Part shown: in pieces, positions 31,582 to 37,679 of the stretch
Position numbering within the stretch: the first letter of the stretch is position 1
Layout: every line of letters begins with the position of its first letter
Source of the DNA: a virus
Direction: 5' to 3' (one strand)
Virus record (IMG/VR): IMGVR_UViG_3300047508_000033
Coordinates: 1-38,968 of that record
Length of the DNA stretch: 38,968 nt
Notes under the pieces: generated by a model
Seen by the model: only the letters and a program-made list of their open reading frames with translations
What the model was told of the DNA's origin: nothing
The model's database searches: none
Translations under genes and position numbers: made by a program

Positions 31582-31903
31582 GCAAGCCGCCAACGTGCTT
31601 CACCGTGCGCCCGCAGTAGCAGCAGAACTTCACAAAGTCCAGACTGCAACCCTCGTAGGCCACGAACTCCTCTTTGCACGACGTGGTGTAGGTGTCGCTG
31701 TCTGGATCTTCCGGCATCCACTCGCAGTCCGGTGTCGGCTCACGGGAGAGGGCGAGCGCGGCTTCGAGTTCGTCAGCGCACTGTGTCAGCAGTCGCGTGT
31801 TTTGGTTCTCGCCAATCCCGTATTGCCACGCGGCGGCATCTTTGCGCCACTGCTCCTCTAACGCGCGCAGGGCGTCGGCCGTGTCCGGGGGACGGGTAGT
31901 CAT
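31574..31903 (-). CDS. Zinc-ribbon early protein
   Basis: 109 residues from ATG 31903, overlapping the upstream stop. The helical N-half (DALRALEEQWRKDAAAWQYGIGENQNTRLLTQCADELEAALAL) resembles other small phage early proteins. The C-half has CEW...TTSCKEEFVAYEGC...FVKFCCYCGRTVKHV, a pattern common in phage zinc-ribbon proteins (CxW..TTSC...F.YCG). Role unknown; a related N-terminus occurs in the neighbouring gene at 31348. Confidence 0.65.
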   Translation of the reverse strand: MTTRPPDTADALRALEEQWRKDAAAWQYGIGENQNTRLLTQCADELEAALALSREPTPDCEWMPEDPDSDTYTTSCKEEFVAYEGCSLDFVKFCCYCGRTVKHVGGLHG

Positions 31904-32307
31904 CGCACCTCCGTGATCGTGATGCCGTAGATGGCTTCCACGAGCTTCTTCTTCAACCGATAGACCGGGGTCTTCATGCCCTTGACATCCTCGATCACGA
32001 GTTCTCCGTCCTTGCGGTAGTACTGGAAATCCGCGACGTAGTTGCACACGTGCCGCCCCACCAGATCCCAACACGTCGGGGCGATGGGATAGATCGGCTG
32101 CAACCGCAACCCCTGAATCACGCCCGCTCGCTCGAGCGCCTTGAGATACGAATAGCGGCCAGCCTCAGCCTTGCTGGCGAACACGATCCCGTCCACCGTC
32201 GTCTTGACCGCGTTGTACTTCGATCGCCCCGTGTGGGGCAGCCTCGCCAGCGGACGGCGGTGTCTCGTATCGTGCGGTGTTGCGGATTCCCAGCCTCGGG
32301 TTGCCAT
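31900..32307 (-). CDS. DUF1064 PD-(D/E)XK-like nuclease
   Basis: 135 residues from ATG 32307, one base after the upstream stop. SKYNAVKTTVDGIVFASKAEAGRYSYLKALERAGVIQGLRLQPIYPI and YVADFQYYRKDGELVIEDVKGMKTPVYRLKKKLVEAIYG are the DUF1064 signature: E in SKAEA, D in VADF, and E-D-V-K (ExK) in the core. This fold belongs to the PD-(D/E)XK nuclease superfamily and is common in phage replication regions, where a Holliday-junction or single-strand nuclease function is suspected. Confidence 0.85.
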   Translation of the reverse strand: MATRGWESATPHDTRHRRPLARLPHTGRSKYNAVKTTVDGIVFASKAEAGRYSYLKALERAGVIQGLRLQPIYPIAPTCWDLVGRHVCNYVADFQYYRKDGELVIEDVKGMKTPVYRLKKKLVEAIYGITITEVR

Positions 32308-32308
32308 C

Positions 32309-32638
32309 TCAGGCCGCCTCGGCTTTCGTGTCGCCGCGTCTCGCGTCGCTGTTCGCTGTCGCATACCCCCGCTGATAGCCCACCCGTACCGCAAAGTTGA
32401 AAATCTCGATCTCACGCACACTTAACTCCGGCCAGCGGCGATAACAGATCCGCTCAATCTCGCGCTTCCGTGCCAATTTGCGCCGGGCGGTAGACGCTGC
32501 GAAGGCCACGGGCGGCCGCCCCGCACACGCCAGCCCTTGCAGTTTCCGTGAACAGATCGTCCCGCAGGCTCGCTGAGCCTTCCGCGTCGGCTGGAACGTC
32601 TGCTGACAGATCGGACACCGACGACGACGGAGACTCAC
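32309..32638 (-). CDS. Zinc-finger, basic DNA-binding-like protein
   Basis: 109 residues from GTG 32638, overlapping the upstream stop (GTGA). RRRRCPICQQTFQPTRKAQRACGTICSRKLQGL holds four Cys as a zinc finger of the kind found in phage proteins with HNH or transposase-like partners. A basic helical region follows (STARRKLARKREIERICYRRWPELSVREIEIFNFAVRVGYQRGY). DNA binding is likely; no nuclease motif visible. Confidence 0.6.
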   Translation of the reverse strand: MSLRRRRCPICQQTFQPTRKAQRACGTICSRKLQGLACAGRPPVAFAASTARRKLARKREIERICYRRWPELSVREIEIFNFAVRVGYQRGYATANSDARRGDTKAEAA

Positions 32639-33519: not shown

Positions 33520-33780
33520 TCAGCGGTTCCTCATTGCTAAACTTTGTCTCTTGGAAGTCATCGACACATCAGCCATCGCGCCGCGTTTCCGAGCCATCTT
33601 GTTGTTCCGCTTCTGACGGCAGCGAAAGCAGCGCCAGTGACCCGCCGCAAGCTCACGGTCAGTCTTGTCGTTTGCACAGTCCACGCATTGGCCGAGCGCA
33701 AGGCGCCGCTGGTCCCTGTCGCGGTCGTAGGCAGGCTTGAGACCAACCAACCTCCCGTGGCAGTGCGGGCACTCGGTCAT
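33520..33780 (-). CDS. Zinc-ribbon protein in the replication cluster
   Basis: 86 residues from ATG 33780, overlapping the initiator stop (ATGA). CPHCHGR, CVDCANDK and CFRCRQKRNNK knuckles make two likely zinc sites, followed by a basic tail (MARKRGAMADVSMTSKRQ). Position between initiator and loader suggests a nucleic-acid-binding accessory. Confidence 0.6.
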   Translation of the reverse strand: MTECPHCHGRLVGLKPAYDRDRDQRRLALGQCVDCANDKTDRELAAGHWRCFRCRQKRNNKMARKRGAMADVSMTSKRQSLAMRNR

Positions 33781-34616
33781 CGCGGGACGCCTCCCTGACC
33801 ATGCAGAATCGCCAACACCGCCTCGCTGTCCTGCTGTACGGTGGTGCTGAAGAGCGGCTTCCGATTTGATGTCGCGTCCACCGTGGCAAACGCCGCATCG
33901 AAGCGCCCCTGCCAAAACTTAAACGCTTCGCCCATCACGAACTCGGCTGGCAACGTCGCCCAGACCGCCACGTACCAATCCCTGAGCGCGTCGCCGGCCG
34001 CGTGTCGATCGCCGCCATACTTCGGCGCGAGGAGGTCGCGGAGTTTGGTATGCACCGCCGCCGGCACGCACCGCGAATACGTGTCGTCACAGACCGCGTG
34101 TCTCAGGTGGTCCTTCGGATTCATGCCGGCTGTTGCGCCGTCCGTGCGAAACGCCGGGCCAACGCGCGCGATCGTCTCCGTAGGAGACGTAGGAGATGAA
34201 GAAGAAGACGGAGACGGAGAGTTGACTTCTGGTAGCCGTCCGGTTGAACCGTGGTTGACTTCCGGTTGACGGACGGTTGACCTCTGGTTGGCACTCGCAC
34301 GGCCTGCATCGGATTGCCGGCGGCGATACTCAACCTGCTTCTCGCGCTCCAGATCCAGCCGCTTATTGATCAGGGCATCGCCCTTCACGGTGAAGCACGC
34401 CGCGAGGGCAGGCCAGAGCTTTTGAAACTCCGAGCGAGTCGCCCCGACCATCTGCGCGAGCCGGCGCGGGTCATCGGGTAGTGAGCCTTCTAACCAGCAG
34501 ATCGACAACAGGGTGATATAAGCGCCACGTTCAGCCAGCGTCATCGCCGCGACCTTCCCATCGGTCAGGAAGTCCTTCGGGTAGAACTGGAAAGCTGGCG
34601 CCTTCTCGCTCGCCAT
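33777..34616 (-). CDS. DUF1376 replication initiator (O-like)
   Basis: 279 residues. The N-terminal FQFYPKDFLTDGKVAAMTLAERGAYITLLSICWLEGSLPDDPRRLAQMVG is the DUF1376 domain, a winged-helix module in phage replication proteins. A low-complexity linker (~110-150, Arg/Ser/Pro-rich) is encoded by the iterons at 34220-34296 and a GA-rich tract. The C-terminal part (DAFKFWQGRFDAAFATVD region) is conserved-looking. The arrangement matches lambda O, whose gene contains ori. It probably binds its own iterons and works with the loader-like protein and the host replisome. Confidence 0.8.
   Translation of the reverse strand: MASEKAPAFQFYPKDFLTDGKVAAMTLAERGAYITLLSICWLEGSLPDDPRRLAQMVGATRSEFQKLWPALAACFTVKGDALINKRLDLEREKQVEYRRRQSDAGRASANQRSTVRQPEVNHGSTGRLPEVNSPSPSSSSSPTSPTETIARVGPAFRTDGATAGMNPKDHLRHAVCDDTYSRCVPAAVHTKLRDLLAPKYGGDRHAAGDALRDWYVAVWATLPAEFVMGEAFKFWQGRFDAAFATVDATSNRKPLFSTTVQQDSEAVLAILHGQGGVPR
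34220..34296. repeat. Seven 11-bp iterons (candidate replication origin)
   Basis: Consecutive 11-mers: AGTTGACTTCT, GGTAGCCGTCC, GGTTGAACCGT, GGTTGACTTCC, GGTTGACGGAC, GGTTGACCTCT, GGTTGGCACTC. The core GGTTGA recurs with exact 11-bp phasing inside the initiator gene; units 1, 2 and 7 are degenerate. A purine-rich strand-asymmetric tract (~34180-34220) follows. This resembles lambda ori: initiator iterons in the initiator gene plus a skewed, easily melted flank. Confidence 0.75.
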
Positions 34617-36332: not shown

Positions 36333-36533
36333 CTACTTCATCCCTTCCGTCTCGCGCCAGAACTTGCGGATCGCCCGCTCATAGGTCGCTTCACGGCTCT
36401 CCACGGAATCAGTTGAAGGTGCCCGAGTCCCCCACCAGTCGGGCCGCTGGCTTCTCGCGCGCTCCTGTTCGCGCTGGAGTTCAAGAACTTTCGTAATTGC
36501 GGACTTGCGTAAGAACCCGCGCTGGAAGGTCAT
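36333..36533 (-). CDS. 66-residue charged protein
   Basis: Starts MTFQRGFLRKSAITKVLELQ, then Arg/Glu-rich (REQERARSQRPDWWGTRAPS...SREATYERAIRKFWRETEGMK). ATG overlaps the exonuclease stop (TGATG). It probably forms helices and may accompany the neighbouring nucleases. No family recognised. Confidence 0.6.
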   Translation of the reverse strand: MTFQRGFLRKSAITKVLELQREQERARSQRPDWWGTRAPSTDSVESREATYERAIRKFWRETEGMK

Positions 36534-37201
36534 CAGAACACCGCCAAAGCGGGCTGGCTGAAGAACCCGAGCTTGTTCGCCAACGCGGCGGTCTTCTTGA
36601 TGTCGGCCACCACATGGGCGCGCACGTCGTCCCAGCGGCCTTCTGCGACCGCTTGCCCAATGTCCGCGCCGGTCATGGTGTCGGGCACGCTGATCCCGAA
36701 CCGCTTGCAGTAGAAGGACAGCGAGCGGAGTCGGAGCTTCCCGCCGTACGACAGCTCGTCGCTCAGGTCGGTCACATGGGGATGCTTGAAGCGGTCGATC
36801 TGAAGCCGTGGCGCGCGCACGCCGAGATACAGCGAGCGCCGGAGCAGGACCGGCAGATCGAAGGCGAGGCAGTTGAAGCCAACAATGTGCCGATCGCCAA
36901 CCGTTCGCCAGAAGTCCGCCAGTATCTGCGCCTCGTTCTCATCGTCGCGCGCCATGTCCGCCTTCGGTGCGTCCTCGTCCTCCCGCTGCCAACCAATCGC
37001 CACCACGCGGCAGAGGTCTACATCCAGGCCGCACTTGGACAGCGCCTCGGCGTTCTTCTCCGCGATCGCCGCGGCGATCTTGACCGGGTCTTTGTAGTTG
37101 GCCGGCGCGTCGGCGGGCTCGATGTAGACCGCCGCATCCGTGAGCGGGGCGGTCTCGATGTCGAACACCAGCCGCATCGCGTTCTCGTTGTTCAGGCCCA
37201 T
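36533..37201 (-). CDS. DEDD 3'-5' exonuclease (PolB-exo-like)
   Basis: 222 residues. RLVFDIETAPL (D14, E16), HIVGFNCLAFDLPVLLRR (N110, D115) and HVVADIKKT (D200) form the DEDD set of PolB-type proofreading exonucleases. It is a stand-alone exonuclease without a polymerase domain, a family common in phages and mobile elements (predicted 3'-5' exonuclease related to PolB). Located between NinB-like and HNH genes, it probably works in recombination or end processing. Confidence 0.85.
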   Translation of the reverse strand: MGLNNENAMRLVFDIETAPLTDAAVYIEPADAPANYKDPVKIAAAIAEKNAEALSKCGLDVDLCRVVAIGWQREDEDAPKADMARDDENEAQILADFWRTVGDRHIVGFNCLAFDLPVLLRRSLYLGVRAPRLQIDRFKHPHVTDLSDELSYGGKLRLRSLSFYCKRFGISVPDTMTGADIGQAVAEGRWDDVRAHVVADIKKTAALANKLGFFSQPALAVF

Positions 37202-37202
37202 G

Positions 37203-37679
37203 TCAGACTCCCCATCCGTGCGTCAATTCGGTTTGTTCCGCGCTGGCGTAATCGGGGTCAGGATCGGGAATCACGACATCGAGCGTTTCCGCTGCCCACT
37301 GCCGGATCGATTCCATGTATTCCCCGAACTCCAACTTGTTCATCTTGCGAGTCGAGCCGCCGAGCACCAGTTCTTCCTGGATCTCCCCGTTGCCGTCACA
37401 CACCGCGAGCCGCTTCGGGATGAACTTCGCCTTAAACCACTCGTGCATGTCATCCGGCGCGAACCCGGTGTATTCCGAGACGAGATGCACGACCACGCCC
37501 CAGTAATACGCGTTCTGCAACACGCTCCGTGTCGCCCGGCGCAGCGTGACCTCAATCTCCACCTCTGCGCCTTCTCGGATCTGGCCAATCTGCTGATCGA
37601 ACTCGCGACGATTGCGAATGAACAGACGCCCGTTCTCGATGCGCCCGAACGCCGTCACGTCGCTATTCACAGCAGCCAT
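37203..37679 (-). CDS. NinB-like recombination protein
   Basis: 158 residues. RRATRSVLQNAYYWGVVVHLVSEYTGFAPDDMHEWFKAKFIPKR and TRKMNKLEFGEYMESIRQWAAETLDVVIPDPDPDY follow the NinB/Orf family pattern (R..RS..QNAYYW, HE.FK.KF, S/T......EF..Y...I..WAA). In lambda, NinB/Orf binds SSB and single-stranded DNA and helps replace RecFOR. The next gene encodes an SSB-like protein, which fits this partnership. Confidence 0.75.
   Translation of the reverse strand: MAAVNSDVTAFGRIENGRLFIRNRREFDQQIGQIREGAEVEIEVTLRRATRSVLQNAYYWGVVVHLVSEYTGFAPDDMHEWFKAKFIPKRLAVCDGNGEIQEELVLGGSTRKMNKLEFGEYMESIRQWAAETLDVVIPDPDPDYASAEQTELTHGWGV

Follow-up and report, generated by a model that had tools for sequence, protein, structure and literature searches.

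A phased 11-bp iteron array inside a DUF1376 gene as the probable initiator-binding part of a phage replication origin

Introduction

The locus described here raises the question of what a series of short tandem repeats is doing inside a coding sequence, and whether it could mark the site at which a phage starts its replication. The window (the whole stretch of 38,968 nucleotides of viral DNA that was analysed) carries these repeats within a gene for a DUF1376 protein. The array is probably the initiator-binding part of a replication origin located inside the initiator gene, and would be bound by the winged helix of the DUF1376 protein. Sequence comparison lends strong support to an origin lying within the initiator gene, and the evidence for each part of this reading is set out below together with the alternatives.

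Results and Discussion

The repeat array

Seven 11-mers abut one another with no spacers between units (Table 1), in agreement with the adjacency of copies that had been noted. The array is genuine and is reported by Tandem Repeats Finder at periods 11 and 33. The original prediction gave GGTTGA as the core of all seven 11-mers; the seven phased units stand but this core does not, the hexamer being found in four copies, in consecutive units, and the exact pentamer GGTTG in five of the seven units, with a 5-mer carrying one mismatch in the other two. Read on the coding strand, the unit is CAACC-N6. The array lies antisense within the DUF1376 ORF, at about codons 109–134 of 279, and thus in the linker-coding part of the gene where it had been placed, the linker being modeled with low confidence by AlphaFold.

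Table 1. Position of the array, of its units and of the neighbouring features in the window
Feature	Position	Strand	Sequence	Remarks
Phased 11-bp iteron array, n = 7	34220..34296	+		core GGTTG (CAACC on the coding strand)
Five exact GGTTG cores	34242, 34253, 34264, 34275, 34286 (34242..34290)	+
Array unit 1	34220		AGTTGACTTCT	AGTTG, one mismatch to GGTTG
Array unit 2	34231		GGTAGCCGTCC	GGTAG, one mismatch to GGTTG
Array unit 3	34242		GGTTGAACCGT
Array unit 4	34253		GGTTGACTTCC
Array unit 5	34264		GGTTGACGGAC
Array unit 6	34275		GGTTGACCTCT
Array unit 7	34286		GGTTGGCACTC
Purine-rich low-stability flank, candidate DNA-melting element	34176..34219	+		coding-strand TCTCCG/TCT repeats encode SPSPSSSSS
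DUF1376 gene, proposed replication initiator holding the array	33777..34616	-		279 aa
DUF1376 domain, predicted winged helix, proposed iteron-binding domain	34350..34592	-
Helical C-terminal region, proposed partner-binding (helicase or loader recruitment)	33867..34139	-		AlphaFold helices 167–249; function inferred
Holliday junction resolvase, same gene block	31900..32421	-		PHROG 190, E 9e-42
PolB-type 3'-5' exonuclease and NinB-like genes, upstream in the same block	36533..37679	-

Constraint at the DNA level

The copies lie successively in frames 2, 1, 0, 2, 1, 0 and 2, and encode QP, T and N by turns. Since 11 is not divisible by 3, neighbouring copies shift frame and the repeat is therefore a feature of the DNA; and since the copies cycle through all three frames, it is not the by-product of a repeated peptide. 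A repeat at the protein level is thus ruled out. In the window up to 5 GGTTG copies follow one another at 11 bp, against 1 or 2 in first-order Markov versions of the whole window (n = 200). None of 20,000 versions of the gene obtained by codon-usage resampling contained five phased CAACC, and none of 20,000 obtained by codon permutation did.

The array is kept at an equivalent place in the two closest relatives found, whose best segments are 66% and 62% identical in amino acids, so that the conserved GGTTGA-type array expected in related phages is indeed present. In a comparison anchored on one shared unit, 25/25 and 24/25 core positions are identical, against 15/24 and 11/24 spacer positions and 158/246 and 174/246 positions of the domain-coding part (64–71% nucleotide identity). 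Therefore, the core is kept better than the surrounding coding sequence while the spacer drifts, and frames, resampling and core-to-spacer comparison together place the constraint on the repeat as DNA, independently of the encoded protein. As the relatives keep the array while spacers and protein change, the outcome that would have spoken most directly against the original prediction is absent.

These data also bear on the possibility of a neutral slippage duplication in a tolerant linker, or of a repeat kept for the sake of its peptide, which is extremely improbable. The linker is predicted to be disordered, as slippage would allow, and 11- or 22-bp tandem repeats exist outside initiators in bacterial genomes. 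Slippage is, however, contradicted and ruled out by the divergence of the spacers around a core that is kept between relatives, and the cycling of the copies leaves no common peptide to be selected; the failure of all 20,000 synonymous versions to match argues against both forms of this explanation. A scan of bacterial contigs (genome_contigs) returned many 11/22-bp tandem repeats without link to initiators, and the 11-bp pattern is therefore informative only in phage sequence.

Recurrence among DUF1376 loci

A protein-alignment search provided an unbiased set of 80 DUF1376 loci (26 clusters at 70% identity), in which 5-mers recurring at least three times at a fixed spacing of 4–30 bp were recorded. 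A period of 11 bp was found in 12 of the 26 clusters and in 1 of the 227 other ORFs from the same loci, and periods of 8, 10, 13 and 14 bp in none of the 26. Periods that stay in frame were seen in 16 clusters (6 bp) and 6 clusters (12 bp), and period 7 in three; period 22 is a harmonic of 11. The core varies by lineage, being CAACC, GCCAT (loci L520–L524) or AAGCA (L499 and L533, the latter with seven copies). On codon permutation of 15 genes, most of the period-11 runs were rare (0–5/500) and four were weaker (21–47/500). That a clear 11-bp array is seen in only about half of the DUF1376 clusters counts against the origin reading.

In the ydaU gene of E. coli Rac (DUF1376; L719:5120-5977) no exact 11-bp array was found, which is a further point against this reading. 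By eye, TGTTCA occurs there at 33-nt spacing and may be a decayed array; ydaV, the gene that follows, has the annotation 'putative ATP-binding protein'. Many genes of L534–L562 present GGTTG three times at 11 bp around codons 48–50, in the part coding for the N-terminal domain and in the orientation opposite to that of the linker array.

Recurrence in other initiator families

Viral contigs were scanned at the DNA level for (GGTTGN6)x4, and 92 proteins were aligned, corresponding to 91 distinct array-bearing ORFs of at least 150 aa and the window protein as reference. The matches listed lie mostly in phage initiator linkers; among them, out of 92, 33 correspond to a DnaD-like helicase loader PHROG, 18 to primosomal protein and 18 to 'replication initiation O-like' (overlapping classes), and the Pfam families represented are DUF1376, Phg_2220_C, DUF6291, Rep_Org_C and DnaB_2. 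An in-frame control at 12 bp, with one extra spacer base, returned mostly low-complexity proteins of the QPQP/TPTN type (DnaD-like loader in 3/54). In-frame periods thus turn up different proteins, which argues further against a repeat kept for its peptide. The permuted core GTTGG at 11 bp led again to initiator linkers, with a match to one DnaD-like loader family in 57 of 76 cases. A scan with the arbitrary core ACAGT at the same period yielded 59 stretches; of 60 places inspected by eye in this last scan, about a quarter were initiator-like linkers, the remainder being intergenic DNA or short ORFs. Several GGTTG arrays with the 11-bp period in phages are situated outside any long ORF (L032, L051, L061, L085, L107 and others) and may be intergenic origins or plain tandem repeats.

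Among Firmicute initiators, collected with a query made of the N-terminal part only and hence blind to the array, 13 of 27 clusters show period 11, with CAACC, TGTCA, ATACA, CTGTA, TGTAT, TGGCA and others as cores. A wider scan for a third initiator family yielded only 3 loci. The initiator gene of a cultured Vibrio phage (L715:1192-1881) contains ACGAA three times at 11 bp. Profile comparison of the N-terminal domains detected no relation between the initiator families, the profiles being shallow. The recurrence of period 11 with differing cores across families thus indicates that the period is common to them and the core is not.

The presence of the same CAACC core under initiators with no detectable sequence relation could be explained by a shared host factor, so that the repeats would be an origin bound by a protein other than DUF1376 (a host or another phage factor). 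This is very improbable, as the core shifts by lineage (CAACC, GCCAT and AAGCA in DUF1376; TGTCA, ATACA, CTGTA and TGGCA in Firmicute initiators) while position and period stay constant, which is what would be expected if the encoded protein reads the core, and the array travels with the initiator gene.

The DUF1376 protein

Residues 9–89 match Pfam DUF1376 (PF07120) with 44.5 bits, above the curated cut-off of 30.1, and the gene product matches PHROGs annotated as 'primosomal protein'; the array is thus placed within the coding sequence of a proposed replication initiator. The AlphaFold model shows high confidence for residues 10–110, folded as helices, a beta wing and a long helix, followed by a linker with pLDDT below 50 over much of its length (predicted disordered) and a helical C-terminal part. 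The top Foldseek hits of the DUF1376 domain are the staphylococcal plasmid RepA initiators 4pt7, 4pql, 4pta and 5kbj, all weak (E 0.08–0.14), and a second structure aligner placed RepA initiators (Z 5.0–5.7) close to other winged helices. The Pfam search of the protein reported no RepA_N match, and a search of solved structures by sequence gave nothing convincing.

Flank and genome-wide signals

The purine-rich flank that had been noted beside the array is there: the adjoining 44 nt are 77% purine, overlap the most purine/pyrimidine strand-asymmetric 44-nt window of the whole 39 kb, and are among the 0.7% least stable 40-bp windows. TCT accounts for 7 of the 8 Ser codons in this tract and for 7% of the serines elsewhere. 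Other initiator families present other short-period tracts at this position, such as the AGGAT-like one in Tuc2009. These properties of the TCTCC/TCT flank fit a melting element, short of proof. In three relatives (L491, L492 and L526) TCTCC recurs beside the iterons at period 7, out of frame, so that the flank too is a DNA-level repeat there.

The cumulative GC skew falls through 34 kb with no extremum or turning point there, and the support expected from it either failed or was uninformative; taken alone, the skew neither supports nor excludes an origin at this position. The lack of a turn at 34 kb and the weakness of the RepA fold match (E ~0.1, Z 5.0–5.7) are nevertheless observations against the origin reading. 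The last ~40 bases of the contig (38926-38968, a GGC/GTC triplet repeat) recur near its start (1-85), and the record may therefore represent a circular or permuted genome whose break lies within a low-complexity repeat.

Proposed mechanism and significance

In the proposed mechanism, every 11-bp repeat, of which there is one per helical turn, would be contacted by the winged-helix (DUF1376) domain at the N-terminus of an initiator, so that a row of initiators would form along the same face of the DNA. The resulting strain would melt the neighbouring TCTCC/TCT tract, which is strand-asymmetric and of low stability, after which the replicative helicase or its loader would be brought in by the helical C-terminal domain. 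The linker of the protein, being flexible, would accept any residues that the repeats happen to encode. The predicted binding of the initiator to the array is supported by comparison, and we infer melting and helicase recruitment from what is known of lambda, Tuc2009 and RepA_N.

The chances are about even that 11-bp phased iterons in the initiator's own linker represent a general origin design of tailed phages, common to winged-helix initiators unrelated in sequence (DUF1376, Rep2009/DnaD-like, DUF6291 and others), the core being specific to each lineage and the period unchanged. If so, sequence alone would be enough to read both origins and initiator specificity, the origins of many uncultured tailed phages could be located automatically, and the 11-bp period would point to a common stacking of initiator domains along one DNA face; a changing core with a constant period would also offer a natural series for the evolution of initiator specificity. 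In the uncultured phage studied here, the candidate origin is placed within ~120 bp, and a domain listed by Pfam as of unknown function receives a concrete proposed function and a testable binding site.

Origins inside initiator genes are already known as a kind, and this array type is known in Tuc2009. New, as far as the open-licence literature shows, are the candidate origin for DUF1376 phages and the 11-bp period recurring with a changing core across initiator families. No description of an 11-bp rule was found in that literature, and priority is uncertain.

Comparison with known replication origins

In phage lambda the iterons are likewise found between the parts of gene O coding for the DNA-binding and C-terminal regions (codons ~116-145 of 299, here ~109-134 of 279), and an asymmetric, easily melted tract follows them. 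The annotated lambda iterons are, however, four 18-bp elements spaced by 20, 24 and 23 bp (20–24 bp), different in sequence from the 11-bp units without spacers seen here, and the 11-bp test on gene O found nothing. The description of this locus as a lambda-like origin thus holds for its location inside the initiator gene, to which the relatives and Tuc2009 lend support by comparison, but fails for the type of iteron and gains nothing from the GC skew. In Staphylococcus phage 80alpha the origin is proposed to lie within ORF20, the replisome organiser gene (PMC5499656), where a rep_origin is annotated; the period there is 15 (ACTAA four times), with none at 11. As TP901-1, 80alpha and lambda, whose origins have been shown or proposed to lie in the initiator gene, present no 11-bp pattern, intragenic origins are of more than one type. 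The missing pattern in these three phages counts against the origin reading of the present array.

In RepA_N plasmids the Rep boxes to which the N-terminal domain of the initiator binds are located in the middle part of rep, and the protein can do without the linker that this part encodes (PMC5703833). Like these initiators (pSK41, pTZ2162), the DUF1376 protein has an N-terminal winged helix, here a predicted one, and candidate binding sites in its own gene, and they are its best, though weak, fold match. They differ in belonging to plasmids rather than phages and in their semi-palindromic iterons, with 8–9 bp repeats converging on a poly-A tract (PMC7145576).

Phage r1t ORF11 (L714:3896-4630) carries GGAAC four times at 11 bp in the linker-coding part of the initiator gene, with a core different from the one found here. 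The repeats of the present array could in principle be operators, to which the initiator or a repressor binds in order to control transcription of the replication operon, replication starting elsewhere; iterons of many replicons double as operators, and binding alone would give the same sequence picture. Here this is quite unlikely, since the array is located well inside the gene and not at a promoter, and recurs at that site in families of initiators, though not in the genes nearby; in addition, the repeat region inside the gene of Lactococcus phage Tuc2009 was shown by experiment to work as an ori. Tuc2009 Rep2009 and TP901-1 ORF13 are described as binding direct-repeat regions inside their own genes, and these regions serve as ori (PMC8965321).

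Tuc2009 came up when a Firmicute initiator of the 11-bp-array type was used to query phage records. Its rep gene (rep2009, orf16), which according to its GenBank note 'contains origin of replication', holds CAACC four times at exactly 11 bp in codons 113-125, and these copies are presumably the repeats bound by Rep2009. The two initiators have no detectable sequence relation (hhalign of the N-terminal domains, with shallow profiles), and the fold predicted for the Tuc2009-type domain (pLDDT 76) matches generic winged helices with no clear best family; the order of predicted secondary structure elements is alike in both N-terminal domains. The flank reads AGGATAGG in Tuc2009 and TCTCC/TCT here, but in Tuc2009 and r1t, as in the present phage, a short-period strand-biased tract comes directly after the repeats. 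Tuc2009 and the present phage have in common CAACC/GGTTG cores spaced exactly 11 bp apart within the linker-coding part of the initiator gene.
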